Assembly: GCA_021383565.1 (NCBI GenBank)
Contig: CP079699.1
Span: 2,294,001 to 2,358,000, forward strand
Origin: Levilactobacillus brevis
Lineage (GTDB): Bacteria > Bacillota > Bacilli > Lactobacillales > Lactobacillaceae
Reading direction: 5' to 3'
DNA: 64,000 bases
Position 1 is the stretch's first letter; the number at the start of each line of letters is the position of its first letter. Below the pieces are notes generated by a model, which was not told where the DNA came from, did not search any database, and saw nothing but the letters and a program-made list of their open reading frames with translations. The position numbers and the translations under genes are program-made. This document shows, piece after piece, positions 8,266 through 62,340 of the stretch.

Positions 8266-9824
8266 TGGTAAAAATTCGGATTCTCTCAACCAGTGACGTT
8301 CACGGCTACGTCTATCCGACCAAGTACTTAAGCGTCACGGATCGGCAGCCACTGGGGCTGCTAAAGGTGGCGACCATCATCGACAGCTTTCGACAAAACG
8401 CCTTGCCGGATGAGATTGTTCTAGTCATTGAGAATGGTGACTGGATTCAGGGCTCGCCCTTTGCCACTTACTTGGCCAAGCACCCCGAGGTTCCGAGTGA
8501 ACAGTTGACGCAGCTGACCACGACCCTGCATTACGATGCCGGAGTCCTGGGCAATCACGAGTTTAATTACGGCTTGGACTATCTACGCACGGCCGAAAGC
8601 GACCGTGACTACCCGTTGTTGGGCGCGAACATCACTGGTGGTGAGACGCAACATATTGTGGATGCACCGTACACCATCGTAACGCGTCAGGGCGTGAAGA
8701 TTGCTATTCTGGGGCTGACCACCGCTTACGTCCCCACTTGGGAGACGGCGGATCACGTGGCTGGGCTTGAATTCGAATCCGTCGTTACGGCAGCTAAACG
8801 CTGGGTACCCCGCTTGCGGCAACAGGCCGATGTCGTGGTGGTGGCCTATCACGGTGGCTTCGAAGCCGATCCCACCACGGGAGAACCCACGGAACGCGCC
8901 ACCAGTGAGAACGAGGGCTACCGATTACTGGCGGAGGTGCCGGGGATTGACGCGTTGATTACGGGTCACCAACACCGCCAATTAGCCGATATTTATTGCG
9001 GTGTGCCCACGACGCAACCTGGTGAAAAGGGCGAGGCTGTGGGGCTGATCGACCTGACGCTGGATAAAGCCAAGCGGATTGTTGAACACGATGCCCGCCT
9101 ATTGACTACGGCGGCCGCCCCGCCGGCCGAATGGCTTGCCGCGTTGACCAAAGAAACGGAATCCCACGTCCAACGGTGGTTGGATCAGCCGATTGGTCAG
9201 TTGGCCGGAGCCAGTCTTACGGTCACGGACCCGCTGGCGGCACGGTTACACGGCCATCCGTACTTACAGCTGGTCAATGCCGTCGAAATGGCCGCCGGGC
9301 AAACGGACATTGCGGCCGCGAGTCTCTTCAACGATGACGTCCGGGGGCTGGGGTCCCAGCCGACGATTCGGCAATTGTTGAACAGTTATAGCTACCCGAA
9401 CACGTTAGTCGTTGAGACGCTCACCGGTCAAAATATCCGCTTGGCCCTGGAGCGGTGTGCCAGCTTTTTCGAGTTGGCGACCGATGGTACGGTGCACGTC
9501 AGCCCCGCGTTTACCACGCCCAAGCTACAGCTTTATAATTATGATATTTATAGTGGCCTCGACTATACCTTTGACCTCCGGCAACCGGTCGGTCAGCGGG
9601 TGGTCCGGTTAGATTACCATGGACAGGCGGTTCAACCGAACCAGGAGTTAGCTGTTGCGGTGAACCAGTACCGTGGCAATGGGGGCGGCGACTACCCAAT
9701 GTTTAGCCCGGCGAAGATTATTCGGGAAGTAAACGTCGATCTACCGGAACTGATTATGAATTATTTTGTGGAACATCCCGTCGTCACGGGCGTGCAACCC
9801 ACGAATTTTAAGGTGCAATTTTAG
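8265..9824 (+). CDS. 5'-nucleotidase / metallophosphoesterase family protein, cytoplasmic
   Basis: The protein has 519 residues in two domains. The N-terminal calcineurin-like metallophosphatase has D11-x-H13, NGDW (D59), GNHEF (N97, H98), a YHGG motif and GHQH. The C-terminal 5'-nucleotidase domain (about 310-510) carries a GNGGGDYPMF loop resembling the substrate-binding region. Most relatives are secreted, but this one has no signal peptide, so it should act in the cytosol, possibly on the compound imported by the transporter. Its ATG overlaps the phnE stop codon, tying it to the operon. The substrate may be a nucleotide, a cyclic nucleotide or another phosphoester; that cannot be decided here. 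Confidence 0.85.
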   Translation: MVKIRILSTSDVHGYVYPTKYLSVTDRQPLGLLKVATIIDSFRQNALPDEIVLVIENGDWIQGSPFATYLAKHPEVPSEQLTQLTTTLHYDAGVLGNHEFNYGLDYLRTAESDRDYPLLGANITGGETQHIVDAPYTIVTRQGVKIAILGLTTAYVPTWETADHVAGLEFESVVTAAKRWVPRLRQQADVVVVAYHGGFEADPTTGEPTERATSENEGYRLLAEVPGIDALITGHQHRQLADIYCGVPTTQPGEKGEAVGLIDLTLDKAKRIVEHDARLLTTAAAPPAEWLAALTKETESHVQRWLDQPIGQLAGASLTVTDPLAARLHGHPYLQLVNAVEMAAGQTDIAAASLFNDDVRGLGSQPTIRQLLNSYSYPNTLVVETLTGQNIRLALERCASFFELATDGTVHVSPAFTTPKLQLYNYDIYSGLDYTFDLRQPVGQRVVRLDYHGQAVQPNQELAVAVNQYRGNGGGDYPMFSPAKIIREVNVDLPELIMNYFVEHPVVTGVQPTNFKVQF

Positions 9825-10117: not shown

Positions 10118-12868
10118 ATGGCACAAGACCCAGAAGCAACGATAACCTCAACTGAAATCGCAGAGAATACCGACCCTGGACCCAGCCAGCAGCCGCCCAT
10201 ATGGCAGCGAACGACTGAGTCCTTACTTGTAGATTATGGCACGGATAAGGATGATGGCCTGAGTACCGGCGAGGCGCAACAACGCCTGCGGACCAATGGA
10301 CCTAACGAACTGACGGCGAAGAAGCAATCCAACTGGGTGCGCTTCTTGAAGCAGTTCAACAACAGTATCATCTATATCCTGGCGGGCGCCGCCTTGCTCA
10401 CGTTTTTTATGCACCATTACTCCGATTCAATCGTTATCGGATTGGTGATCATCGCGAACGCCTTTATCGGTTACTTTCAGGAAAAATCCGCGGATAACGC
10501 TTTAGATCGGATCAAGGCCCTCTTAGTTAACGAGGCCGTGGTCATTCGTGATGGGCAGAAGATTACCTTACCGGCTCGCGAGCTGGTGGCCGGTGACATT
10601 GTCCAGCTGGAGGCGGGGGATACCGTTCCCGCCGATCTGCGACTGATCGATGCGGATAACTTAAAGATTCAGGAGTCCGCCTTGACCGGTGAAACCGACT
10701 CCGTGTTGAAGGGGGAAGATCCCCTAATGGCCGCCAATTTACCGTTAGCCGAACGGGCCAATCTGGCCTTCGCTTCGACGGCGGTGACGAATGGTTCCGG
10801 TCGGGGGATTGTGACGGTTACCGGTGCGGATACTGAGATTGGGCATATTCAGCAAAACGTGGCCGAAGTCAAACAACAACGGACACCGCTGATGAAGAAC
10901 CTGAACAGCTTGGGATTAGGTCTATCCATTGCAATCTTGGTCGTGGCCGCGTTACTTTTCATTCTGGGAATGATTACCCACGTTTACAGTCTACCAACGC
11001 TGTTGATTGCCGTGATTACCATGGTCGTGGGGTCCATGCCGGAAGGGTTGCCCGCTAGTACCTCGGTCGTTTTGGCCATGGGAACCCAGGCGATGACCAA
11101 GCAAAACGTCATTGTGAAGACGTTACCGGCCGTGGAAACCTTAGGGGCCGTGGACATTGTCAATACCGACAAGACCGGGACGCTGACGAAAAATGAAATG
11201 ACCGTGACGGATATTCTGACAGCCGCGGATACCTACACCGTTTCTGGGGTAGGGTATGATGCGACCGGACAGATTGAAAATGATGAGGGGCAAACCGTTC
11301 CGTGGCAACATGACCACGACCTCGAATGGCTGGTTCAAATTGCCGGGCAAACTTCCGATGCCGAGTTCCATGAAGAAGACGGCCAGTGGGTCTTGACCGG
11401 TGAACCAACCGATGGGGCGCTAACGGCGTTGTACCATAAATTGGTGGGGGCCGATCCGGACCCACAAGAGATTGACTCCCTACCTTTCGATTCAGCCATC
11501 CGGTACTCCGCGCGACTCGTGGATCACGCCGACCAACGTCTCTTGTTGGTGAAGGGGGCTCCACAGACGCTGATGCGGTTAATGGCCGAACAAGGTCAGC
11601 CGGTGGACCAAGCGGCTTGGCAGGAACGGCTTTCCCAGTTGACCCAGCAAGGTAAGCGGGTCGTGGCCCTAGGGTATCAACCCGTGGCTGCGGATATTGA
11701 CGACGTGGCAGACGTGGTGATCGGCCAGGACTTCCATTTGGCCGGCATGGCCGGAATCATTGACCCACCACGTCCCGGCGTTGCCGACGCGGTGAAGCAG
11801 TTACGGTACGCCGGTATCAAGGTTAAGATGATTACGGGGGATGACCCCGAAACGGCGGCCGCAATTGCCCAGCAACTGAATCTCTCAGAGAAGGCCCGCG
11901 CCATTACCGGACCAGAGTTAGCTGAGCTGAGCGACGATGAACTGGCCGCCAAGATTGACCAGTACACGGTGTTTGCCCGGACAACTCCCGCGGATAAGCT
12001 GCGGATTGTGAAGGCCCAGCAACAACGTGGTCACGTGGTCTCGATGACCGGGGATGGCGTGAACGACGCGCCCGCTCTGAAACAGGCCGATATTGGGGTT
12101 GCCATGGGGATTCGGGGAACCGACGTTGCCAAGGACTCCGCCGATATGGTCTTGGCCGACGATGATTTCACGTCGATTCTGCGGGCCGTACGTGAAGGCC
12201 GGCACGTCTTCGATAACATCCGGAAGACCATTCGTTTCCTACTTCCTACGAGTTTTGCGGAAGGGTTAATCGTGGTCCTTAGTATCTTGATGGATCAACC
12301 GTTGCCGTTGTTTCCAACCCAATTGTTGTGGATCAATATGGTTTCCGCACTGACCATTCAGTTCGCGTTCATCTTTGAACCGGCCGAGAGTGGCATTATG
12401 AAACGGGGACCTCGGGATGTGACGCGTGGGATTCTGTCCAAGCTGGACGTCTTTGAAGTCACCTACGTGTCGCTTCTGATTTCCGGGTTGGGGATGTTTG
12501 CCTATGACGTTCTGACGAACCAGGGCCTGAACGCCGTTATCGGGAGTACCATGACCTTAAACGTGATTATCTTCGGGAAGGTCTTCTACCTCTTTAACCT
12601 GCAAAATGACCATCCGGTGCTGTCGAAATACTTCTTCAGAAACAAGATGAGTTTTGTAATTGTCGCGATTCTACTGGTCTTACAAGCCGGAATTATTTAC
12701 TGGCCAGCCATGCAGAGCGTGTTCCACACGACCTCGGTTAACTTCTACTACGGTTGGTGGATTCCAATCGTCGCTGGTTTTGTCGTCCTCGTGGTGACCG
12801 AGATTGCCAAGGCTATTCGCCATCGCATCGACCATCAGACCGTCTCACGAGAACAGCGAAACTTCTAA
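10118..12868 (+). CDS. P-type cation-transporting ATPase (P2-like, Ca2+/monovalent cation type)
   Basis: The 916-residue pump has an N-terminal cation ATPase domain, actuator (LTGE), the PEGLP motif in M4 (about 308-312), phosphorylation motif DKTGTLT (Asp351), KGAP in the nucleotide domain, MTGDGVNDAP, and a C-terminal membrane bundle of six segments. I prefer ATG 10118 over 10091 because AAGGA precedes it and nothing precedes the longer form. In M6 the segment is WINMVSALTIQFAF, where SERCA-type pumps have an aspartate (NLVTD); that acidic ligand is missing, so calcium is not assured and another cation is possible. Transcription probably includes the leader ORF. A strong terminator follows. 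Confidence 0.88.
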   Translation: MAQDPEATITSTEIAENTDPGPSQQPPIWQRTTESLLVDYGTDKDDGLSTGEAQQRLRTNGPNELTAKKQSNWVRFLKQFNNSIIYILAGAALLTFFMHHYSDSIVIGLVIIANAFIGYFQEKSADNALDRIKALLVNEAVVIRDGQKITLPARELVAGDIVQLEAGDTVPADLRLIDADNLKIQESALTGETDSVLKGEDPLMAANLPLAERANLAFASTAVTNGSGRGIVTVTGADTEIGHIQQNVAEVKQQRTPLMKNLNSLGLGLSIAILVVAALLFILGMITHVYSLPTLLIAVITMVVGSMPEGLPASTSVVLAMGTQAMTKQNVIVKTLPAVETLGAVDIVNTDKTGTLTKNEMTVTDILTAADTYTVSGVGYDATGQIENDEGQTVPWQHDHDLEWLVQIAGQTSDAEFHEEDGQWVLTGEPTDGALTALYHKLVGADPDPQEIDSLPFDSAIRYSARLVDHADQRLLLVKGAPQTLMRLMAEQGQPVDQAAWQERLSQLTQQGKRVVALGYQPVAADIDDVADVVIGQDFHLAGMAGIIDPPRPGVADAVKQLRYAGIKVKMITGDDPETAAAIAQQLNLSEKARAITGPELAELSDDELAAKIDQYTVFARTTPADKLRIVKAQQQRGHVVSMTGDGVNDAPALKQADIGVAMGIRGTDVAKDSADMVLADDDFTSILRAVREGRHVFDNIRKTIRFLLPTSFAEGLIVVLSILMDQPLPLFPTQLLWINMVSALTIQFAFIFEPAESGIMKRGPRDVTRGILSKLDVFEVTYVSLLISGLGMFAYDVLTNQGLNAVIGSTMTLNVIIFGKVFYLFNLQNDHPVLSKYFFRNKMSFVIVAILLVLQAGIIYWPAMQSVFHTTSVNFYYGWWIPIVAGFVVLVVTEIAKAIRHRIDHQTVSREQRNF

Positions 12869-20945: not shown

Positions 20946-20963
20946 GGGCTTAGACCGACTCAA

Positions 20964-21409
20964 GGGTGAAAGCTAGAAAATAGCTAGGATCCGTAGTGTG
21001 ATAAGGATTCTAGCTGTGATAATATGATAGTCGCGTAATGGCCGCCTTACCGTTCGCCAAATTTGGTCTGGATCGCTGTGGGAAGGACGGGCCAAGCCAA
21101 AGTGCGATCTTGTCCCTCGCTTTGAGCCGATAATTCACGTCTCAAAGACGCCATTTTCCAAGTAGGACACTTGGAGAATCCTACGGCTGAGACCAAATTT
21201 GACTCACTCACGGCTACCTGAAGTGTGCTCAATTAAACTGGCTGAACGTTGTCACCCCAGCGATTCATCGCGTGTTCAGTGACTTTCAACCACCGTAACC
21301 GGAGGATCGCTTCTCAGGCCGCAGGTGGCGTTGATGACTAGTTTAATGGCGATAAGCCCTGTCGGCCGAGGATTGGGGCGTGTTCGTAAACTTTCAATCT
21401 TCAGTTTAG
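20964..21409 (-). repeat. dispersed intergenic repeat, copy B
   Basis: About 446 bp match the longer copy at 38694-39274 in inverted orientation, for example ccaaatttggtctggatcgc followed by similar blocks over several hundred bases. Both ends carry the imperfect terminal motif (gtgaaagctagaaaa on one side, actgaagattgaaag read from the other). The internal 12-bp inverted repeat caaatttggtct/agaccaaatttg (21058-21069 and 21190-21201) is conserved with copy D. No conserved ORF was seen. Confidence 0.75.
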
Positions 21410-26479: not shown

Positions 26480-26637
26480 TTTAAAAGTTGAAAGATTGCG
26501 AACACGCTCCAGTTTCCAGCTGACAAGGCCTATCGCTATTAAACCGACCTGCGGCTGCCAGCCTACGACTATCATATTATGATGGATGGTATCCTTGTTA
26601 CACTACGGATTCTAGCTATTTGCTAACTTTCAGTTAA
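26480..26637 (+). repeat. dispersed intergenic repeat, copy C (internally deleted)
   Basis: About 158 bp. The left ~85 bp (aaaagttgaaagattgcgaa, then tttccagctgacaaggc and acctgcggctgccag) match the left end of copy D. The right ~60 bp (tatccttgttacac, then ggattctagct) match the right end of copy D. The ~420 bp middle is absent. This end-joined structure is typical of deletion derivatives of small mobile elements. Confidence 0.75.
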
Positions 26638-36310: not shown

Positions 36311-36333
36311 AGAATCCAACAGAATAGCGAGGA

Positions 36334-36373
36334 GACGGTGATCGTGCTTTGGCGGCGGTCACCGTCTTTTTTT
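36334..36373 (+). terminator. terminator after the second AKR5-like gene
   Basis: Stem gacggtga (36334-36341) pairs with tcaccgtc (36359-36366), followed by seven T. Confidence 0.85.
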
Positions 36374-36471
36374 GAAAAATTTGGGCGAAACGTGCAACAA
36401 AATCACATTTTTTTACATTAGTAGTAAGTAGAGGCCGGTTGCCTGAGTCAGAGTGAGTTGATCTGTTTTAA

Positions 36472-36720
36472 GAGTATATCAGGTTATTTGAAACAAGTAT
36501 TTATTATGCCTACGCACCGCGCCGAGACGTGCAAGCTCAGACTGTGCACATTGAGAAGAATGCGTGGGTTGGCGCCGGTGCGCTCATCTTACCGGGCGTG
36601 ACGGTTGGCGAGAACGCCATCGTGGGGGCCGGTGCCGTGGTCACGAAGGACGTTCCTGCCAATATGGTAGTCGTGGGAACGCCGGCCAAGATACTGCGGC
36701 GCGTGAAGGAAACTGTGTAA
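36472..36720 (+). pseudogene. truncated hexapeptide-repeat acetyltransferase (C-terminal remnant)
   Basis: From a stop codon at 36469-36471 the frame is open to 36720 and encodes only the last coils of a left-handed beta-helix acetyltransferase: [35 protein letters not shown] and GTPAKILRRV. The Mac domain, catalytic histidine and first repeats of the intact relatives at 18227 and 18915 are missing. No ribosome site precedes the possible GTG start at 36529. It is best read as a decayed fragment of a third paralogue. The sequence from about 36374 to 36471 shows no gene. Confidence 0.75.
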
Positions 36721-36778: not shown

Positions 36779-37660
36779 TTAATTTTCAGCAAGCGTCAGT
36801 TCATCCTGAAGCTGGGCCAACAACGCCTGAGCCGCGGCGGATAACCGTTGGCCCTTGAGCCAAACGAAGCTAGACCCCGATGAAATTCGCGGACTTAGTG
36901 GAACAAAAGTTAGATCGGATTGGTTGGTGTTGATGATTCCGTCCAATCCCAAGGCGTTGCCGACGCCCGCCGACACTAGCAGGGAAGCGTTATAGAGCAG
37001 ATTGTAAGTGGCCACGACGTTGAGATCAGCCTGCTCGAAACCAAAGAGGTCGTGGATCCGGGCAGTGCCACCTTGTTGCGGTACAATGAGTCGAGTTTGC
37101 GCGACATCTGCCAGACTAACCGTGGTTTGACGGGCTAGGGGATCGGTATTTTTAACCAATAGCCCCCAACGACTCTCGCCGGGAAGCCGGATAAAGTCGT
37201 AGTCGTGCTTGTCGATGGGTTCCATGACCACGCCGAAGTCAAAGACGCCGGAGGTCAGGTGCTGATGAATGTCAGCGGCGTCCATGCTGACGAGGTTGAT
37301 CTGAACGTGGGGATGGCGTTGATTGAGGTGGCCGATCGCCTGAGCAACGGTGAGCATACTGCGGGCTTCGGCACTTCCCACGTAGACGGACCCACTGATG
37401 TCTTTCTCCTGGTGAATGTTGGCCAGGGTTTTATCGGTGAGGGAAAGAATCTGCCGAGCCTGGTTGGCAAAATACTCGCCGTCAGTGGTGAGCTGAATCG
37501 TCCGGTTTCCTCGTTCAAAGAGCGTCGTGCCGAGTTCTTCCTCCAGCTCCTTTAGCTGGCGTGATACGGTAGGCTGTGACACGTGCAGGCGAGCGGACGC
37601 CTTACTGATGTTTTTTTCCTGAACGATCATCAAGAAGTAACGCAGGACCCGTAATTCCAT
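36779..37660 (-). CDS. LysR-family transcriptional regulator
   Basis: The 293-residue protein has the LysR layout: an N-terminal winged helix (LRYFLMIVQEKNISKASARLHVSQPTVSRQLKELEEELG, about 5-45), a linker helix and a two-lobed effector domain (about 90-290). The start at 37660 is chosen because AGGAG lies 9 bases upstream; the ATG at 37669 touches that site. A 33-bp palindrome covers its -10 region, so it is probably autoregulated. It is divergent from the DUF2255/MerR/reductase block and may activate it. The effector is unknown. Confidence 0.9.
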   Translation of the reverse strand: MELRVLRYFLMIVQEKNISKASARLHVSQPTVSRQLKELEEELGTTLFERGNRTIQLTTDGEYFANQARQILSLTDKTLANIHQEKDISGSVYVGSAEARSMLTVAQAIGHLNQRHPHVQINLVSMDAADIHQHLTSGVFDFGVVMEPIDKHDYDFIRLPGESRWGLLVKNTDPLARQTTVSLADVAQTRLIVPQQGGTARIHDLFGFEQADLNVVATYNLLYNASLLVSAGVGNALGLDGIINTNQSDLTFVPLSPRISSGSSFVWLKGQRLSAAAQALLAQLQDELTLAEN

Positions 37661-37681
37661 GGTAGCCATCTCCTATAACTA

Positions 37682-37731
37682 GAATGCATAGATTTTAATT
37701 TAATCTAAGCATTCGACATAACGAAAGTCAA
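37682..37731 (-). promoter_or_regulatory. 33-bp palindromic operator over the lysR promoter
   Basis: The arms gaatgc-a-tagatt (37682-37694) and aatcta-a-gcattc (37702-37714) mirror each other around ttaattt with one mismatch per arm, and contain LysR T-N11-A motifs. On the minus strand TTGACT (37731-37726) and TAGATT (37707-37702), 18 bp apart, form the lysR promoter under it. Confidence 0.6.
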
Positions 37732-37838
37732 GCCATAAGATAGGGAGTGAAGATAGACGGAAAGGAAGTCAGGCAATTGCGAAGTTATCAGTGGAGTATC
37801 TTAACGAAGAACACTTGGCGGGCGGCAGGACGTTGGCA

Positions 37839-38222
37839 ATGATGACGTGGACAGCCCAACGTTTACGAGCGTTTGCGACGGCTGACGATCTGCGCATCTC
37901 GCCATTTTATAGCGACGGTCGGACTTACGGTACGCCAACGTGGATCTGGTCCGTGGTGGTTGATGGCCGCTTGTACGTACGTGCCTGGCACGGTCAGCGT
38001 TCATCATGGTACCAGTCCGCGGTGCGTCAACGTGGCGGCCGGATGTATCTAGACGGGCAGAACTTTAAAATTAAGTTTGTACCGGTAGCCGTCGATTCAC
38101 CGCTGACGACTCAGATCGATCGCGCCTATCGTCAGAAATACGCGGACAGCATTTATGTTCTATTGATGGTACAGGCGGGGCCGCAAGCGGCGACACTCGA
38201 GATCCAGCCCAGTGAGGGTTAA
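37839..38222 (+). CDS. DUF2255 family protein, copy 1
   Basis: The ~127-residue product has the features of DUF2255 proteins: FATADDLRISPFYSDGRTYGTPTWIWSVVVDGRLYVRAW near the N-terminus and an AYRQKYADS segment near the C-terminus. It resembles small beta-barrel proteins of the pyridoxamine-phosphate-oxidase/nitroreductase-like split-barrel type, but no cofactor site can be asserted. I place the start at ATG 37839, where CAGGA gives acceptable spacing. A paralogue (39327-39704) lies beyond the MerR gene and a repeat. Function unknown; the neighbourhood suggests redox or detoxification chemistry. Confidence 0.8.
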   Translation: MMTWTAQRLRAFATADDLRISPFYSDGRTYGTPTWIWSVVVDGRLYVRAWHGQRSSWYQSAVRQRGGRMYLDGQNFKIKFVPVAVDSPLTTQIDRAYRQKYADSIYVLLMVQAGPQAATLEIQPSEG

Positions 38223-38273
38223 GCGAAACAGTCAGTTAATCAGCAGGCAGTGACCATGAAAGGCGGGGGCAGG

Positions 38274-38645
38274 ATGAAAATTAACGAGGCGGCACGGCAA
38301 CTACAGACCAGTGCCTGGACGTTGCGGTATTACGAACAGATCGGGGTGATTGCGCCGGTCACGCGGGTGAGTGGTATTCGGGACTACACACCGGGAGACA
38401 TTGCCCAGTTGCGAGAGGTCCTGACGCTACGCGATTGCGGGGTCAAATTGGCAGAGATTAAACAGTTGTTGGCACTAGAAGGAGCGGCGAATACGGAACG
38501 CGTGCGGCAACAACTTCTCCAAACGCGCGCCACCGAATTACGCCACGAGATTGACCGTCTCCAAACGTCTCTGGGTCACCTCGATGATAAGATCGCGACT
38601 CTGGCCACGCCCAAGCAAGCGCTCGTTGGCAATGGTACGCGCTAA
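38274..38645 (+). CDS. MerR-family transcriptional regulator
   Basis: The 123-residue protein has an N-terminal MerR winged helix (MKINEAARQLQTSAWTLRYYEQIGVI, then RDYTPGDIAQLREVLTLRDCG) and a C-terminal coiled coil (about 85-112). It has a single cysteine, C55, and no metal-binding cysteine cluster, so it is not a metal sensor. It resembles the aldehyde/stress-type MerR regulators that control nearby reductases. The start at 38274 follows a G-rich site. It lies between the DUF2255 paralogues, 51 bases after the first, and repeat copy D follows. Confidence 0.87.
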   Translation: MKINEAARQLQTSAWTLRYYEQIGVIAPVTRVSGIRDYTPGDIAQLREVLTLRDCGVKLAEIKQLLALEGAANTERVRQQLLQTRATELRHEIDRLQTSLGHLDDKIATLATPKQALVGNGTR

Positions 38646-38693
38646 AGGGTAGCGTTATTAGCAATTGGAAATGCGCGCACAACCTACAATTTT

Positions 38694-39274
38694 TAAGTGA
38701 AAGTTGAAAGTTCGCGAACACGCGCCAGTCTCCAGCTGGCAAGGCTTATCGCCATTAAACTAGTCATCGATACCACCTGCGGCTGCCAGAGATTCCGGCG
38801 CTGTGGGGACCGCCTGCGGCCTAAAAAGCGGTCCTCCGGCTCGGTTTGAAGCCTGACCAAGATCGCGTCAGTCTCCAAACACGTCCCGCGCTGTAAGCTG
38901 ACCCAGAACGTCAGCTAACACCGCTGTCACGGCTGCCTCCATCTCTGGCTGCCTCCGGTTACGATGGTTGAAGACCACTGAACGTGCGGTGACATCGCTT
39001 GAGTGACCATGTTGGGCTATTGGATACTCCTCACGTAGCCGTGAGTGAGTCAAATTTGGTCTCAGCCGTGGAAACTGGCGTCTTTGAGACGCGGGCTGAC
39101 GGCTCAAAGCGAGGGACAAGACCGTCCTTTGGCTTGGCCCGTCCTGCCCACAGCGATCCAGACCAAATTTGGCGAACGGTAAGGCGGCCAGCACGTGATT
39201 ACCCTATTGTAGTGGGTGTTATCCTTGTTACACCGCGGATTCTAGCTGTTTTCTAGCTTTAAACCTTCAGTAAA
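38694..39274 (+). repeat. dispersed intergenic repeat, copy D (longest copy)
   Basis: About 580 bp with imperfect terminal inverted repeats: the left end tgaaagttgaaag matches the reverse of the right end, tgaaggtttaaag, at 11 of 13 bases. It contains a conserved 12-bp inverted repeat (39051-39062 with 39160-39171) enclosing gcgtct-ttg-agacgc and other small foldbacks. Reading frames exist on both strands but are not shared by other copies, so no protein is supported. It separates merR from the downstream operon. Confidence 0.75.
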
Positions 39275-39326
39275 AGATTAAAATGGTGTTTGACTATCTC
39301 AGAAATAAATCAAGGGAGTGTATCAT

Positions 39327-39704
39327 ATGAAAGCATGGACGACAGCACAACTCAAAGCCTTTACTACCGCAGATGACATGCGGGTCTCGCCCTTTTACGA
39401 AGACGGGAAAACGTACGGGACACCGACCTGGATCTGGTCGGTTGTCGTGGGTCAACATCTCTATGTTCGGGCATGGAACGGGCCACACTCGCGGTGGTAT
39501 CAAGCCGCCAAGTCGCAGGGAGCCGGGCGCATTCACCTAGCCGATCAGGACTTCGATGTCGCTTACGTCCCCGTGACAACCGACGATGCGTTGACGACGG
39601 CGATTAATCAGGCTTATGCGGCCAAATACGCTGGCAGTCCCTACTTACCACCAATGTTAACCGCTGGTCCAATTAGCGCGACGGTGCGGTTGGATTTGAA
39701 GTAA
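39327..39704 (+). CDS. DUF2255 family protein, copy 2
   Basis: The 125-residue paralogue of the protein at 37839 shares FTTADDMRVSPFYEDGKTYGTPTWIWSVVV, LYVRAW, SRWYQAA and AYAAKYAGS. The start ATG 39327 has GGGAG 8 bases upstream. Its gene is 26 bases from the next and heads the reductase-amidohydrolase-CMD-AKR operon. Function unknown; the duplication within one locus suggests either heteromer formation or two related substrates. Confidence 0.82.
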   Translation: MKAWTTAQLKAFTTADDMRVSPFYEDGKTYGTPTWIWSVVVGQHLYVRAWNGPHSRWYQAAKSQGAGRIHLADQDFDVAYVPVTTDDALTTAINQAYAAKYAGSPYLPPMLTAGPISATVRLDLK

Positions 39705-39730
39705 TCACTAAATTTGGAGGAAATCAACGA

Positions 39731-40372
39731 ATGACTAAAATTATGATTGTTGGCGCGCATGGCGCCATGGCCCAGCTCTTGACGGACCGTTTATTAAATG
39801 AAACACAGGTAGAACTGACGTTATTTCTACGGGATGCCGCGCGGTTGAACCGGTATGCGGATAATCCCCGGGTCACGCTGGTCGATGGGGACGTTAAGGA
39901 TACGGCCCTAGTCGCCAAGCAGATGACCGGAACCGATCTGGTCTACTCTAACTTGGGTGGCCCGGACTTAGCCGATCAAACGCAGAGCGTCCTGACGGCC
40001 ATGAAGCAGACCAACACACAACGCTTCGTGTACATCAGTGCGCTGGGTGCCCATCACGAGGTTCCGGGTAAGTTCGGCGAATGGAACGAACAAGCCATTG
40101 CGGCCTTTCTACCGGGCTTCCGCAAGACGGCGCAGTTGGTAGCCGATTCCGGGCTCACCTACACCGAGATTCGACCGGCTTGGCTGACCGATAACGATGA
40201 GGTGGACTACGAAGAAACGCAACTGGGCGAGGACTTCCAAGGCACCGAGGTCTCACGTAAGAGCGTGGCTGACTTCACCTTGAAGGTCATCACTCATCAG
40301 GACACCTATCAGAATGCCAGCATCGGGTTGGACAAGGCCGGTACCGCCGGCGATCAGCCCAGCTGGATCTAA
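39731..40372 (+). CDS. NAD(P)-binding atypical short-chain reductase (NmrA/YhfK-like)
   Basis: The 213-residue Rossmann protein has a GAHGAMAQ dinucleotide loop at residues 8-15, DGDVKD after the third strand, LVYSNLGGPD and FVYISALGAHHE in the region of the catalytic Ser/Tyr of classical SDRs, and EIRPAWLTD before the substrate lobe. It belongs to the extended/atypical SDR class that includes NAD(P)H-binding flavin or quinone reductases. TTGGAGG precedes ATG 39731. The stop codon overlaps the ribosome site of the amidohydrolase, implying co-expression. Confidence 0.85.
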   Translation: MTKIMIVGAHGAMAQLLTDRLLNETQVELTLFLRDAARLNRYADNPRVTLVDGDVKDTALVAKQMTGTDLVYSNLGGPDLADQTQSVLTAMKQTNTQRFVYISALGAHHEVPGKFGEWNEQAIAAFLPGFRKTAQLVADSGLTYTEIRPAWLTDNDEVDYEETQLGEDFQGTEVSRKSVADFTLKVITHQDTYQNASIGLDKAGTAGDQPSWI

Positions 40373-40384
40373 GGAGTGTGGACA

Positions 40385-41305
40385 ATGACCGTTATTGATG
40401 TATTTGCGCACGTCTTACCACCGAAGTTTTTAGCGAAAATGAACGCCGTTCACCCTCAGATTTTGGATCAATTTCCGTACATGAAGAATGCCTTACTGAC
40501 GGATCTGGCCCAGCACCGCGCGTCATTATCCGCGGATCACCAACAGATTCTCTCGCTGGTGAACCTCAATCCGGAAGATTTCGTGGACGCTGATCAAGCG
40601 GCGGCACTGTGCCGTTTTGGCAATGCTGAACTCGCCGAACTGGTTCGCGCCAATCGGGATGTTTTTCCGGTCGGTGTGGCCATGTTACCGTTGAACAATG
40701 TGCCCGCCGCGTTGGAAATTATCGACGAACAGGTGGCCCATAGCGATGCGCTGGTCGGCGTGCAACTGTTTACGCAGGCGTTGGGGCGGCCGATTACGGA
40801 CCCGACGTACGAACCAATCTTCGCCAAGCTGGCGGAAATTGGCGCGCCAATTTGGCTCCACCCGGTCTTCGATACCCATAAGACGGATAATAATCTGACG
40901 TTTAGCTGGGAGTACGAGTTGACCCAAGCTATGTATGGCATTGTTGCGGCGAAATATTTCCGCAAGTATCCGCGACTCAAGGTGATCGTCCACCATGCCG
41001 GTGCGATGGTGCCGTACTTCAGCCAACGCATCAAGTACATTCAGTCGGCCGAGGACTACGCTGACTTTCAGAAATTTTACGTGGATACGGCGATTCTGGG
41101 CAATCCCCAAGCGTTGGATCTGGCGGCCAGCTTCTTCGGTGTCGACCATGTGTTGTTCGGAACGGATTCGCCCTTCGGTATTCCACCAGTGGGACCGACC
41201 GCAGTAATTGAACAAGCCGTCCAAGACATGGCCCTGACACCGGTTCAGAAACAAGCCATCTTACACGATAATTGGCACCGATTGATGGGAGCGATGAACA
41301 AATGA
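40385..41305 (+). CDS. amidohydrolase family protein (ACMSD/resorcylate-decarboxylase-like)
   Basis: The 306-residue TIM-barrel protein matches Amidohydrolase_2: DVFAHVLPPKFL at the start, PIWLHPVFD, VIVHHAGAMVPYF and DHVLFGTDSPFG with the conserved Asp. Relatives decarboxylate or hydrolyse ring-derived acids. The usual D-x-H-x-H metal motif is D5-V-F7-A-H9, so the first metal-ligand histidine is phenylalanine, which may change metal use or activity. The start ATG 40385 has AAGGAG upstream, and the stop codon overlaps the next gene (ATGA). Whether it decarboxylates an aromatic acid is inference. Confidence 0.85.
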   Translation: MTVIDVFAHVLPPKFLAKMNAVHPQILDQFPYMKNALLTDLAQHRASLSADHQQILSLVNLNPEDFVDADQAAALCRFGNAELAELVRANRDVFPVGVAMLPLNNVPAALEIIDEQVAHSDALVGVQLFTQALGRPITDPTYEPIFAKLAEIGAPIWLHPVFDTHKTDNNLTFSWEYELTQAMYGIVAAKYFRKYPRLKVIVHHAGAMVPYFSQRIKYIQSAEDYADFQKFYVDTAILGNPQALDLAASFFGVDHVLFGTDSPFGIPPVGPTAVIEQAVQDMALTPVQKQAILHDNWHRLMGAMNK

Positions 41306-42015
41306 CGATAGAAAATGAACAGCGATTGCAGGCGTGGTTACCCGATGATCCGGATCTGGCACACATCGTTGGTCGTCTCATGACGGCCGTGACAACGGCG
41401 CCGGAGGCCATCGAACCGGGTGAGGCCAGCGTCATTGCCATCGTTACGTTAACGGTGCAACATACACCACAATTGATTCCCCAACAGGTCAAGCTGGCCT
41501 TGCAACAGGGCATTTCTGCGCAACAGATGTTGGAAGCCGTGTATCAATTGGTGCCGGTCGTGGGTTTACCCAAGGTGCAGGACGCATTAAGGGCCATGCA
41601 CACGGTCTTACCGGCCGCACAGCCAACACCATCTACGGCCGATGAGGTCGGTGCGACGGTCCAGCAACGCTTGTACGGGACGGAAATTAAAACGTTACTG
41701 CATGGTTTACCGGCCAATGCGGGTAACGATCTGCCGGCTTGGCTGACGCAACATTTTTTTGAGGATTACTACGGTCGCGCTGGTTTAACGGTCGCTCAGC
41801 GGGAACGTTACGAGCTCATGGCATTAATCACGCTCAACGTGGACTTTCAGATTAAAGCCCACGCACGCGGAAGCCTGAAGGCGGGAAACAGTGAGGAACG
41901 GTTGATTTGGTCGGCGCTCCAACTCTTGCCATATGTCGGGTTTCCGCTGGTGATTAACAGTGTGCAGCGGATTCACGCGGCGGCCGTCGAGTTAAACAAT
42001 CAGAAGGAAGCGTAA
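41302..42015 (+). CDS. carboxymuconolactone decarboxylase family protein (two CMD modules)
   Basis: The 237-residue helical protein contains two CMD-like modules: about 30-100 (EASVIAIVTLTVQHTPQLI...LEAVYQLVPVVGLPKVQDAL) and about 150-230 (RYELMALITLNVDFQIKAHARGSL...LLPYVGFPLVINSV). Neither has the redox CxxC pair of AhpD peroxidases, so a lactone or other carbon-acid reaction is more likely than peroxide reduction. ATG 41302 overlaps the amidohydrolase stop codon, and the aldo/keto reductase begins 3 bases after its own stop. Translation of the three genes is therefore coupled. Confidence 0.83.
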   Translation: MTIENEQRLQAWLPDDPDLAHIVGRLMTAVTTAPEAIEPGEASVIAIVTLTVQHTPQLIPQQVKLALQQGISAQQMLEAVYQLVPVVGLPKVQDALRAMHTVLPAAQPTPSTADEVGATVQQRLYGTEIKTLLHGLPANAGNDLPAWLTQHFFEDYYGRAGLTVAQRERYELMALITLNVDFQIKAHARGSLKAGNSEERLIWSALQLLPYVGFPLVINSVQRIHAAAVELNNQKEA

Positions 42016-42017
42016 GT

Positions 42018-43025
42018 ATGGATTATGTAAAATTTGGCAACACGGGGCTGGATGTCTCTCGGTTGTGCCTAGGCACGATGGGCTTCGGTAATGCGTCGAC
42101 GGGGATGTTTCCCTGGGCGGTTGGCGAAGAACAGAGCGAGCAGGTGATTAAGCAAGCGTTGGATCTCGGTATCAACTTCTTCGATACGGCGAACATTTAC
42201 TCGCACGGCGATAGCGAACGGTTTGTAGGACAGGCATTGAAAAAGTTAGCCAACCGCGATGAGATCGTGCTGGCCACGAAGGTCTTCTTCACGCCGGAAA
42301 AGGCCCCCAACGTGGCGGGCCTGTCGCGTAAGGCCATCTTCTCGCAAATTGACCAAAGCTTAAAACGCCTGCAAACGGACTACGTCGATCTGTACGTCAT
42401 TCACCGCTGGGACTACAACACACCGATTGAAGAGACCATGTCGGCGCTAAACGATGTGGTGAAGTCGGGGAAGGTCCGTTACATCGGTGCCTCGGCGATG
42501 TTTGCCTGGCAATTCGAAAAGGCCCAGGCCGTGGCCGAACAGCACGGGTGGACCAAGTTCGTATCGATGCAGAATCACCTGAACCTGTTGTACCGCGAGG
42601 AAGAACGGGAGATGTTGCCGCTATGTGCCGATCAGGGCATTGCGGTGACCCCGTACAGTCCGCTAGCTTCTGGTCGGTTGACCCGGGATTGGGCCGGCAA
42701 CACCAAGCGCTATGCGACCGATGACGTGGCGCGGTCGAAGTACGATGAGAGTCAGTCGTTGGATATGCCGATTATTCACCGTGTGGGCGAACTGGCCGAG
42801 AAATACGGCGTGGATCGCGTGCAGATTGCGTTGGCCTGGTTGTTGCAGGAACCCACGGTCACGGCACCGATTATCGGCGCGACAAAACCCGAGCATCTGC
42901 AGGGGGCGGTCAAAGCGTTGGACGTTCACTTGACGGCGGCTGATGTGCAGTATCTGGAGACGCCTTACCGGCCGCATGAAGTCGTGGGTCCGTTCACAGT
43001 GAGTCAGACGGATTATCAACGTTAA
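42018..43025 (+). CDS. aldo/keto reductase, YajO/AKR9-11-like
   Basis: The 335-residue TIM-barrel reductase belongs to a different AKR branch from the two AKR5-like proteins. The tetrad is D56 (FFDTANIYSHGDSE), Y61, K88 and H129 (LYVIHRWD). The sequences YIGASAMFAWQF and QNHLNLLYREEEREM and the C-terminal PIIGATKPEHLQGAV are typical of YajO/PdxI-like enzymes. It is the last gene of the operon, with GAAGGAAG before ATG 42018 and a good terminator after it. It probably reduces an aldehyde or ketone made or handled by the preceding enzymes. Confidence 0.9.
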   Translation: MDYVKFGNTGLDVSRLCLGTMGFGNASTGMFPWAVGEEQSEQVIKQALDLGINFFDTANIYSHGDSERFVGQALKKLANRDEIVLATKVFFTPEKAPNVAGLSRKAIFSQIDQSLKRLQTDYVDLYVIHRWDYNTPIEETMSALNDVVKSGKVRYIGASAMFAWQFEKAQAVAEQHGWTKFVSMQNHLNLLYREEEREMLPLCADQGIAVTPYSPLASGRLTRDWAGNTKRYATDDVARSKYDESQSLDMPIIHRVGELAEKYGVDRVQIALAWLLQEPTVTAPIIGATKPEHLQGAVKALDVHLTAADVQYLETPYRPHEVVGPFTVSQTDYQR

Positions 43026-43285: not shown

Positions 43286-45004
43286 TTATTTAAACGTCTG
43301 GTTCACATACGACTCAACCGTCCCGGTCTTAGCCGATTCGTTGACCCGACCAGTCAGTTTGACTTGGTCACCGGTCTTCATCAGCACGGCCTTCGGGTAG
43401 TCGGCGGTTCCGACCGTCCAGAGAGTGTCGTTGCCTTTGACCGCAAATAACACGTTTTGGTTGTCGCCGTTTGGAATTACCACAACCCGTTCCACGGTGC
43501 CCTTGAGCTTAACCGTCTTGGAGTTGGTGGTGGAACTAGCCGTTGAGCCGACCGTGGCAAGCTGAACCCGGTATTGGTCGAGCGCCTGAGTGGCCGTAGT
43601 GGCGTAAGCCTTCACACTCTGATCGGCGGCCTTGATGTAGGCGTAACTCCGGAAGGCCCCGGTGGAGTCTAACAGCGAAACGACCCAAGTTGGCGTGCCG
43701 TCGATGTTGTACATGATCGGCATGGTAGCCGACCATTTCTGGGCGACATATTCCTTTTCGGCAATCTTCTTGGCACCGTCACTGTCCATGACCCCGATGT
43801 TCTTCCCGGTGTAGTAGGTCAGCGTCCCCGTCCGGGCGTTAATCATGGAGTAACCCATGGTTGAGTCAGCGCTGGTCTTCGGCGAGGTGAAGTCATTGAA
43901 GTAGGAAATGTTGCCGTGCTTATCGACGACGGGCGTTACACCATCTTCAGTCCCGTTACTGTTAGGGTCCTTGACGCCTGTCTTGTTGAAGTGGGCGTTG
44001 AAGTAACCGTTGCCGTACCAACCGAAGATTTCGTTCATCTCGGCGGCAGTCGAGGAAGCAATTGATTCGTTAATAAACTTTGGTGCGCCGGCGGCCGTGT
44101 AGAGCTGGGTATCCCCCGTCTTAGCGTTGAGGACGACGACATGTAGACTCTTGTAGTTAATCCGACTGGAGACCCCCCGCGCCTTGTAGACGGTTTGGAT
44201 GAAGTAAGGTTCGCCGGAGTCCTTGATTTCGAGCTGCGGTTGGCCTTCCTGAACCCAGCCAGGGAAGCGGTTGTAGATTACCCGTTGTGCGTCTTCAAAG
44301 AGGTAGGCACTGGGTGTGTATTTCATGGATTGTTTGATAAAATGCGGTTCGGCATTGACGTTGGTGGCGTCAATCATGAAGTAACCGGGAGACTGTCTGG
44401 CCCGTTGCCAGCGCCAGAAACCGTCGAACTCCACCGGTGCGATGTAAACGGTCTTGCCCTTGACGACCTGTGTCTGCAAGGCTCCTAGCTTGTAGTAGGA
44501 GGTGTTCGGCACGGCACTCATGGCCTTGTTCATTTTGTTACGGACGGTCTTGGGTGCGATGGCGATGGGCGTGGCGTCCTTGTCTAAGAGGGGCGCGGTC
44601 TTCATCGTCTTGATTTTCAAGGAATTGTAGACCGGTTTGACGCCAAACTTGGTCTGTGCGGCCCCAAATAAACTGACCACGAAGAGTAAGGCGAGTAGCC
44701 CCGCGGCCACGTTTAAGCCTTTATTACGGCTGCGCACGCGGGGATGCTTATCGCCATTTTCCACCTCAACGTTGGGACTGCTGAGAGCCAGAAACGGCAG
44801 GTACAGCACCCCGCTGATGACGTTCATGATGATTAAGCTAAAGAGCGCCTTGCTGGGAAGAATGACGAAAACCACTCCGATGGCGATGAGGTAGTAGACA
44901 ATGTAGATGCCCGCCAGTAAGCGAAGGTTTTGGGGGCGTTGCACGATGCCCATAATCGCCATGATGAAGGCGGATAGCGTACAGAAGAAAGCAACTAGTA
45001 ACAT
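43286..45004 (-). CDS. polytopic membrane protein with large extracellular domain, function unknown
   Basis: The 572-residue protein has about four hydrophobic segments in the first 120 residues (approx. 1-20, 28-48, 52-74 and 98-117). A long extracytoplasmic part of about 450 residues follows. That part contains repeated PepSY-like turns (NAKTGDTQLYTAAG, INARTGTLTYYTGKN), a Ser/Thr linker near 490, and a C-terminal OB-like barrel (KLKGTVERVVV...LWTVGTADYPKAVLMKTGDQVKLTGRV). I start it at ATG 45004 with AAAGGG upstream rather than a TTG at 45022. I do not recognise a characterised homologue. It is monocistronic and likely acts at the cell surface. Confidence 0.65.
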   Translation of the reverse strand: MLLVAFFCTLSAFIMAIMGIVQRPQNLRLLAGIYIVYYLIAIGVVFVILPSKALFSLIIMNVISGVLYLPFLALSSPNVEVENGDKHPRVRSRNKGLNVAAGLLALLFVVSLFGAAQTKFGVKPVYNSLKIKTMKTAPLLDKDATPIAIAPKTVRNKMNKAMSAVPNTSYYKLGALQTQVVKGKTVYIAPVEFDGFWRWQRARQSPGYFMIDATNVNAEPHFIKQSMKYTPSAYLFEDAQRVIYNRFPGWVQEGQPQLEIKDSGEPYFIQTVYKARGVSSRINYKSLHVVVLNAKTGDTQLYTAAGAPKFINESIASSTAAEMNEIFGWYGNGYFNAHFNKTGVKDPNSNGTEDGVTPVVDKHGNISYFNDFTSPKTSADSTMGYSMINARTGTLTYYTGKNIGVMDSDGAKKIAEKEYVAQKWSATMPIMYNIDGTPTWVVSLLDSTGAFRSYAYIKAADQSVKAYATTATQALDQYRVQLATVGSTASSTTNSKTVKLKGTVERVVVIPNGDNQNVLFAVKGNDTLWTVGTADYPKAVLMKTGDQVKLTGRVNESAKTGTVESYVNQTFK

Positions 45005-45174
45005 GAGATAAACCCTTTCCAATTATGTCTAGAGAAATAGCGACTGGTTACGCTGAACGGTTAACATAAGCCGTTAACCTGGCGCACCAATGTATGTAAA
45101 AAATAATAACCTCCTCTAGTTTACCCTATTTATCCAGGCGACTAAAGGGGAACGAAGAAATCCGGGACGGAAAG

Positions 45175-45209: not shown

Positions 45210-45310
45210 TGTGTAGAGAAGATGCGCCGGCAACCAGCCGGCAGAGATTATCGCCATTAAACTGGTCATCATCACCTGCGGCTACTAGGCATTCCGGCGC
45301 TGTGGGGGTG
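45210..45310 (+). repeat. dispersed intergenic repeat, copy E (left-end fragment)
   Basis: About 100 bp match the left part of copy D, including ttatcgccattaaact, cacctgcggct and attccggcgctgtggggg. The terminal repeat motif itself is not preserved and the right end is missing. Confidence 0.6.
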
Positions 45311-61974: not shown

Positions 61975-62340
61975 TTTGGCTAGCAACTAGAGATGAGACT
62001 GGCCGCCTCGCCATTCGCGCAATATCAACCTCTCCTGCAAGCCAGTCGCCTGCGGCTGCCAGCAATTCCGCCTGCTGTGGGGACCGCCTGCAGCCAAAGA
62101 ACTGGCTTCCGGCTCGCTTGGAAGCCTTGCACAAACCCGCAAGTCTCCCAAGTCGTCCCACGCTGTAACCTGGCTAAGAACGCCAGCTAACACCGTTGTC
62201 ACGGCTGGCTCCATTACTGGCCTCCTCCGGCACAGTGGTTGCCATAAGTGATGGTGTTTGTCCGTGGCAGCAAGCATGACTAGTAGTCACCCACCGGCAA
62301 TGCAAATCATCTTAATTGGCCGCTCATCCTACGCGACTGG
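61975..62340 (+). repeat. dispersed intergenic repeat, copy F (rearranged, diverged)
   Basis: About 365 bp. The left ~40 bp (actggccgcctcgccattcg) match the right part of copy D on the opposite strand. The remainder (cctgcggctgccag, ctgtggggaccgcctgc, aacaccg...gtcacggctg) matches the middle of copy D on the same strand. It is therefore a mosaic with an inverted piece and has no clear terminal repeats. Confidence 0.6.

Follow-up and report, generated by a model that had tools for sequence, protein, structure and literature searches.

A 64,000-nucleotide stretch of the Levilactobacillus brevis chromosome (contig CP079699.1, positions 2,294,001 to 2,358,000; hereafter, the window) carries a LysR-type regulator gene and, divergently from it, seven same-strand genes for two DUF2255 proteins, a MerR-family regulator, a reductase, an amidohydrolase, a CMD protein, and an aldo/keto reductase (AKR). 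Do these genes constitute one conserved pathway module, as an earlier note on this DNA had proposed? The cluster is real and its core is conserved. Comparison with relatives shows, however, that the window locus consists of two fused LysR-DUF2255 units, which in those relatives stand side by side or singly, and that a dispersed non-coding repeat, unnoticed by the note, occupies 38689-39279 at their junction. The repeat is the less expected and more interesting result, and the gene cluster is a modest find.

Open reading frame (ORF) calling and Pfam searches bore out the gene identities and positions that had been proposed. The LysR gene (36779..37669, − strand; PF00126 and PF03466) diverges from unit 1, which comprises the genes for DUF2255 protein a (37839..38222, +; PF10012, E 6.6e-34) and the MerR-family regulator (38274..38645, +; PF13411). 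Unit 2 encodes DUF2255 protein b (39327..39704, +; PF10012, E 2.8e-35), an NmrA-like NAD(P)H-binding reductase (39731..40372, +; PF13460, E 1.5e-52), an amidohydrolase-2/ACMSD-like protein (40385..41305, +; PF04909, E 4.4e-25), a two-domain CMD protein (41302..42015, +; PF02627, E 2.2e-20, in two stretches) placed 3′ of the amidohydrolase where relatives carry an ABM-family protein, and the AKR (42018..43025, +; PF00248, E 1e-80). These five genes are separated by 26 bp, 12 bp, an ATGA overlap, and 2 bp, whereas 681 bp, mostly repeat, lie between MerR and DUF2255b. The strand and order of the seven genes (37839-43025) thus stand, but they need not be one operon because the repeat-bearing 681 bp splits MerR from DUF2255b.

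Relatives of the amidohydrolase were collected with their surroundings (the best 80 of 173 confirmed, grouped by record title), which gave 81 loci with the window, and partner genes were counted by tblastn. Among these best 80 of 173, the nearest named record is that of Lactobacillus sp. HBUAS51381 (89% identity). Across the 20 Levilactobacillus loci, window included, the reductase gene is immediately upstream of the amidohydrolase gene and a DUF2255 gene is located upstream of it in every case; a LysR orthologue (>60% identity) occurs in 19, MerR in 15, and the downstream AKR in 14. Within 1.8 kb downstream of the amidohydrolase gene, 13 loci encode a protein of the ABM family (PF03992, two stretches), whereas CMD directly 3′ of the amidohydrolase gene occurs in 2. 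Acetyltransferase matches (≥60% query coverage) lie inside the cluster in the other 19 loci; the window retains the C-terminal third of a sugar O-acetyltransferase gene as a remnant beside LysR (36514..36714, +; by tblastn, residues 124-190 of 191, 94% identity to the gene of locus L031). Gene content differs strongly among species, with several distinct AKRs at different positions. LysR-DUF2255-reductase-amidohydrolase is clearly a core of conserved order, and CMD lies outside it. The check that the note had set in advance, co-occurrence within Lactobacillaceae, therefore upheld the module as far as this core is concerned but failed the proposed gene set with CMD. The exact seven-gene operon is ruled out as the conserved unit by the scarcity of CMD (2/20) and by the two-unit architecture of the L. 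humaensis locus (L047).

In L047, LysR/DUF2255-MerR is followed by LtrA and a second LysR gene (∼33% identical to the first), which diverges from DUF2255-AKR-reductase-amidohydrolase-acetyltransferase-ABM-AKR. Loci L039, L050, and L053 contain the second unit without the first within the fetched stretch; in L053, the reductase and the last AKR are absent as well. Unit 1 is thus LysR/DUF2255a-MerR, and unit 2 of the relatives is LysR-b/DUF2255b-AKR-reductase-amidohydrolase-acetyltransferase-ABM-AKR. At the corresponding place, the window has no second LysR, LtrA, first AKR, acetyltransferase, or ABM gene; a CMD gene comes after its amidohydrolase gene, and the repeat lies at the unit junction. 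Two DUF2255 genes flank MerR in the window because two LysR-DUF2255 units are joined. A decayed LysR-b gene within the 681-bp gap was considered and rejected, as searches with LysR-b proteins yielded no hit below E 0.5 in this interval, most of which is repeat; a decayed AKR gene was not separately searched for. The LysR-DUF2255a intergenic region is alike in the 17 loci aligned (2 of 19 regions, with gaps >400 bp, were left out), those of L032, L036, and L041 being the most divergent. The alignment and a pattern scan delimit a conserved operator/promoter region at 37694..37741 (+) of the window, which consists of TTTAATCTAAGCATTCGACAT with the promoter-like pair TCGACA-17-TAAGAT and is recognizable in most of the aligned regions. 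A promoter-like scan of this intergenic region found 3 hits versus 1.1 expected in shuffles, which is weak alone. The proposal that the two regulators may sense different signals fits the anatomy of two fused units, as seen in L047.

The repeat (about 38689..39279, +) has many matches in the same genome, terminal inverted repeats, and no conserved ORF. The 681-bp gap produced 44 matches in its own genome, which correspond to 40 places after merging of split matches; since 40 of 167 candidates were scored, this copy number of about 40 is a minimum. Both ends (CTRAAGGTTGAAAG and its reverse complement, up to 4 mismatches) were recognized in 19 of the 40 copies, that of the window included, with spans of 252-601 bp between them. 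With ≤1 mismatch, the end pattern occurs 74 times, versus 2 for a reversed control. Target duplications of 7-8 bp are exact in 9 of the 19 two-ended copies and have ≤1 mismatch in 13. By eye, matching flanks were found at L158, from another Levilactobacillus, and at L206 of genome G218, with similar ends in the latter and a span of ∼430 bp; the same scan revealed no comparable outer ends at L160, L161, L162, L164, L204, L205, L207, or L208. No clean target duplication was seen by eye around the L031 copy (8897-9311), which lies between DUF2255b and the reductase. The longest stop-free stretches in 15 copies (55-153 codons) do not share one frame throughout and, except for one of 153, are within the range of one-copy shuffles (means, 83 and 88; maxima, 149 and 152), which rules out a hidden gene. 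The repeat is thus non-coding, and the family combines terminal inverted repeats and target site duplication with a lack of own coding capacity, as miniature inverted-repeat transposable elements (MITEs) do. The genes flanking the 40 copies are convergent in 17 cases, tandem in 16, divergent in 3, and unplaced in 4 (convergent versus divergent, P 0.003). Promoter-like hits in two copies (L119 and L120) were no commoner than in shuffles.

A nucleotide search with copy L119 matched 26 of 35 genomes of the genus, many matches being limited to either its first or its second part. Across the family, nucleotide search matched 22 of 251 genomes (5 of 40 genera), with short pieces only outside the genus. 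At most 17 candidates per genome were scored in the genus-wide nucleotide search and 9 in the family-wide model search, so that copy numbers there are lower bounds. A plasmid origin is unsupported: copy L119 had no match in 72,556 plasmids, from which near records were possibly left out. No mobilising transposase with the same ends was found, ORFs having been listed for L169 alone among 20 stretches around further terminal inverted repeat sites. At L169:524-2649 (G000:C1, about 812023-814148), a repeat copy is split by two consecutive transposase-like genes of 225 and 297 codons; since both sit inside the split copy, this locus was rejected as an autonomous partner. By eye only, these genes look IS3-like, and the repeat halves overlap by 4 bases. 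Further longer or partial copies were observed within the window at 20957-21397 (−), 62049-62230, 45236-45307, and 26487-26632, the first of which is also matched by the structure model at 21051-21215 (−).

According to the sections consulted of a study of pneumococcal repeats (PMC3049150), BOX, RUP, and SPRITE are small dispersed multi-copy repeats with extensive secondary structure, BOX being modular (67-637 bp), and BOX and RUP have terminal inverted repeats and target duplications. As far as those sections go, the window repeat, set beside BOX by description and not by sequence, resembles these elements in its small size, many copies, secondary structure, inverted termini, and target duplications. 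It differs from them in host family, in the 7-8-bp length of the duplication, in the absence of any Rfam match (ten copies, E 0.1), and in that single matches in relatives often comprise just one of its two parts, be it the first or the second. Prokaryotic MITEs, as portrayed in the consulted part of a review (PMC10969869), have the same inverted termini, target site duplications, and lack of coding capacity, but the window repeat has an internal structure that covaries across 7 genera, and no mobilising transposase was found with its ends. That part of the review contains no words starting with Lactobacill, lactic, Leuconostoc, or Oenococcus, and literature searches retrieved, by title, no lactobacillus repeat of such kind. 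The family is MITE-like, BOX-like, and, to our knowledge, apparently undescribed.

The second part of the element is a structured module (B), which in the window spans 39037..39178 (+; model R1, 154.7 bits) and lacks one hairpin. A covariance model built from 13 own-genome copies of this module gave 66 matches in 70 chosen sources; these include 28 own-genome rows, with one place represented twice (L185 lies within the window), and a few low-scoring reverse-strand matches. Two-sided compensatory changes are evident in 50 of the 59 pairs of the aligned matches (380 compensatory cells versus 87.8 ± 7.2 in shuffles and 53-80 with slid partners). This alignment was fitted to the structure, and the analysis was hence rerun with a sequence-only alignment (n=60; 6 of the 66 matches were dropped as shorter than 130 bases or duplicate), in which 220 of 355 double changes yielded a Watson-Crick pair, versus 68-91 of 224-242 with slid partners. 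Taken by themselves, the own-genome copies give a thin structural signal, with an unfavourable RNAalifold covariation term (+2.15) and two-sided changes in 11 of 142 pairs versus 4.3 in shuffles; the strong covariation stems from other species. At E ≤1e-4 per genome, the model matched 43 of 301 family genomes (7 of 40 genera), and all 7 genomes with matches in an order-level sample of 295 belong to this family. One genome of another genus of the family (G300, genus g38) has at least 9 strong matches (best E 1e-28), which shows that the element extends beyond a single genus. Rfam gave no match for ten copies on both strands up to E 0.1, nor over the window copy up to E 1, and a known RNA family was accordingly rejected; the one weak hit, Termite-leu at 36327-36428, scored 21.1 bits, below the gathering score of 51.

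This covariation may reflect RNA or DNA. G-T mismatches outnumber A-C mismatches (186 versus 107) and the + strand is more stable as RNA in 51 of 60 sequences, although derivation of the structure from + strand sequences biases this comparison somewhat; the asymmetry favours RNA and is not predicted by DNA palindromes. Among the 38 matches outside the own genome, on the other hand, pair-keeping double changes (320) exceed both pair-keeping (107) and pair-breaking (128) single changes, which is unusual for stepwise RNA evolution and expected if palindrome correction contributes. It is thus conceivable, if doubtful, that DNA-level correction of imperfect palindromes, or cruciform DNA required for transposition, generated the covariation of module B in the absence of an RNA function. 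Our tentative preference is for a family that would have spread as a MITE-like element and whose + strand would fold as RNA, so that the window copy could attenuate transcription between units 1 and 2. The window repeat would then be the first described member of a Lactobacillaceae-wide mobile modular family, the structured half of which acts as RNA and the insertions of which provide nearby transcripts with a folded 3′ end or with an attenuator. What speaks against this reading is that the window copy lacks a target duplication, and its own insertion is therefore not demonstrated. Module B was also observed at varied places in or beside the cluster of other species (L045:6440-6606, 11980-12144, and 12407-12583; L047:8069-8244 and 10955-11130; L031:8988-9152); the cluster looks as if it tolerated or attracted this module.

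Outside Levilactobacillus, an ABM gene directly follows the amidohydrolase gene in 14 of 15 Streptococcus loci and in all 13 Coriobacteriia/Atopobiaceae loci. These adjacencies indicate that amidohydrolase-ABM is a widespread old pairing, to which the CMD of the window is the exception. ABM is next to the amidohydrolase in only 2 of 16 Companilactobacillus loci, and 4 further loci from metagenome-assembled genomes have none of the counted partner genes. We then searched 301 family genomes with the amidohydrolase, ABM, and CMD proteins at E thresholds of our own choice: the amidohydrolase was kept at ≤1e-70 (46 genomes; weaker matches in 41 of 87 dropped), ABM at ≤1e-19 (28 genomes; 3 of 31 dropped), and CMD of the window type at ≤1e-50 (14 genomes; 38 of 52 dropped). 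The window's own genome (G000) had no ABM match, whereas 31 other family genomes did. Amidohydrolase and ABM are common to 21 genomes versus 4.3 expected (P 4e-14), and amidohydrolase and CMD to 8 versus 2.1 expected (P 2e-4), the overlaps of the CMD set having been counted by hand. None of the 46 amidohydrolase genomes has both partners (P 0.004, uncorrected for kinship). In 4 of the 8 genomes that share them (G000, G025, G009, and G106), CMD comes directly after the amidohydrolase; in G287 it is adjacent but on the opposite strand, and in the other 3 (G128, G195, and G245) it lies elsewhere. We take this pattern to mean that CMD replaced ABM, in some lineages at the very same position. Their mutual exclusivity suggests that the two proteins may do an equal job, and we infer that they could act on one intermediate. 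Muconolactone isomerase, which has a ferredoxin-like fold as ABM does, and CMD catalyze parallel steps of the β-ketoadipate pathway. Cupin and single-domain CMD genes were also observed after amidohydrolase-ABM in three Streptococcus loci (L094, L095, and L103; Pfam was run on L094 only).

The enzymes themselves escape close assignment. None of the 8 cluster proteins of the window reached the cut-off of a curated NCBIfam model, those for ACMSD, PcaC, and named AKRs included, and DUF2255a, DUF2255b, and the amidohydrolase had no match at all in that collection. The AKR scored 167.8 bits with the YdjG model (cut-off, 550) and the MerR protein 70 bits with that of the stress regulator NmlR (NF041849; curated cut-off, 175). 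The closest solved relative of the amidohydrolase is the uncharacterized structure 3ij6, over its full length (E 5e-131), and both belong to the Pfam family of the ACMSD/Amidohydro_2 decarboxylases-hydrolases. The Amidohydro_2 domain with the later His and Asp of ACMSD is present, and His9, His159, His203, His204, and Asp261 are invariant among 19 aligned relatives (alignment A1). The HxH motif, which we take to be the metal motif of ACMSD, with His159 and Asp261 as presumed further ligands, is altered: the window protein reads DVFAH, with Phe7 instead of the first His and His9 as the second. Position 7 is Phe in ≥90% of A1 and Tyr in L014 and in 3ij6. As to DUF2255b, the Foldseek/VIA matches of its predicted structure (pLDDT 89.6) are split barrels, namely Rv2991 (1rfe), MSMEG_3358 (3h96), Ddn (3r5l), and HutZ (3tgv), at 11-18% identity. 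DUF2255 is thus predicted to be a flavin/F420/heme-type split barrel, and its model has the fold of the FMN/F420 split-barrel superfamily. A phmmer search of PDB sequences with the DUF2255 protein yielded no convincing match, and the literature searched does not mention DUF2255 by that name.

What could such a set of proteins do? The note had envisaged conversion of an aromatic acid, lactone, or aldehyde, which is possible, and knew of no lactobacillus pathway described with such genes; nor did we find one in the literature searched, judged partly by title. With a probability of roughly 45%, we regard the cluster as an inducible accessory set that reduces or decarboxylates a xenobiotic. LysR (and MerR) would respond to a small compound, reactive or aromatic, by inducing the enzyme genes. 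This compound would be reduced by the DUF2255 split-barrel protein together with the NAD(P)H-binding reductase, and the amidohydrolase would either take a carboxyl group off it or hydrolyse it. Without a cofactor, ABM or CMD would oxidise, isomerise, or decarboxylate the same intermediate, and the carbonyl that is left would be reduced by the AKR. The cell would thereby detoxify, rather than grow on, a quinone, aromatic acid, or lactone from its (plant-derived) environment. Several points weigh against this scheme. Its chemical steps are deduced from family membership; Phe7 leaves the amidohydrolase without one superfamily metal ligand, so its activity may differ or be lost; and the window CMD scored 28.5 bits with the PcaC model (TIGR02425), for which the cut-off is 155.7. 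The location of CMD in the slot of ABM holds for half of the 8 genomes, a different, short CMD coexists beside ABM in the three Streptococcus loci, and the P value for exclusivity counts related genomes and is therefore too small.

The same families leave room for genuine catabolism of an aromatic acid or lactone, in which decarboxylation would be ACMSD-like and CMD would have the role that it has in the β-ketoadipate pathway; going by family and molecule names, Amidohydro_2 and CMD include decarboxylases of aromatic acids and muconolactones. We consider this very improbable, given that no protein scores at PcaC or ACMSD level, that CMD is missing from 18 of the 20 Levilactobacillus loci, and that Pfam scans, confined to proteins of the module and its neighbours, revealed no ring-cleaving enzyme, CoA ligase, or CoA transferase. 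The strongly varying gene content (ABM 13, AKR 14, MerR 15, and CMD 2 of 20), the several AKRs at different positions, and the structured repeat module at several cluster positions in other species would instead suit accessory oxidoreductases that cluster for a small stress benefit each, with no single substrate or pathway and with ABM, CMD, acetyltransferase, and AKRs as passengers that can stand in for one another around a regulator unit of LysR and DUF2255. Random assembly would not have preserved the amidohydrolase-ABM adjacency of streptococci and Coriobacteriia/Atopobiaceae or the invariable reductase-amidohydrolase pair of Levilactobacillus, which makes this explanation rather unlikely, and the inducible accessory set remains our preferred reading.

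Composition lends no support to a recent foreign origin of the locus (GC fraction of 0.50-0.56 across 30-50 kb of the window). Beyond the cluster, a 578-amino-acid protein encoded at 43286-45022 (−) has no Pfam match up to E 0.001; 18 of the 81 loci, that of the window among them, encode its relatives.

DUF2255 can now be linked to a LysR partner that recurs and to a fold of a predicted cofactor-binding type, and the amidohydrolase-ABM pair of streptococci, Coriobacteriia, and some lactobacilli emerges as a unit worth biochemical testing. The strand-biased covariation makes an RNA function of the repeat directly testable. If true, the repeat family would rewire accessory operons, such as the window cluster, species by species, and a structured mobile non-coding family of this sort would affect annotation, the interpretation of RNA-seq data, and our understanding of strain evolution in food lactobacilli.

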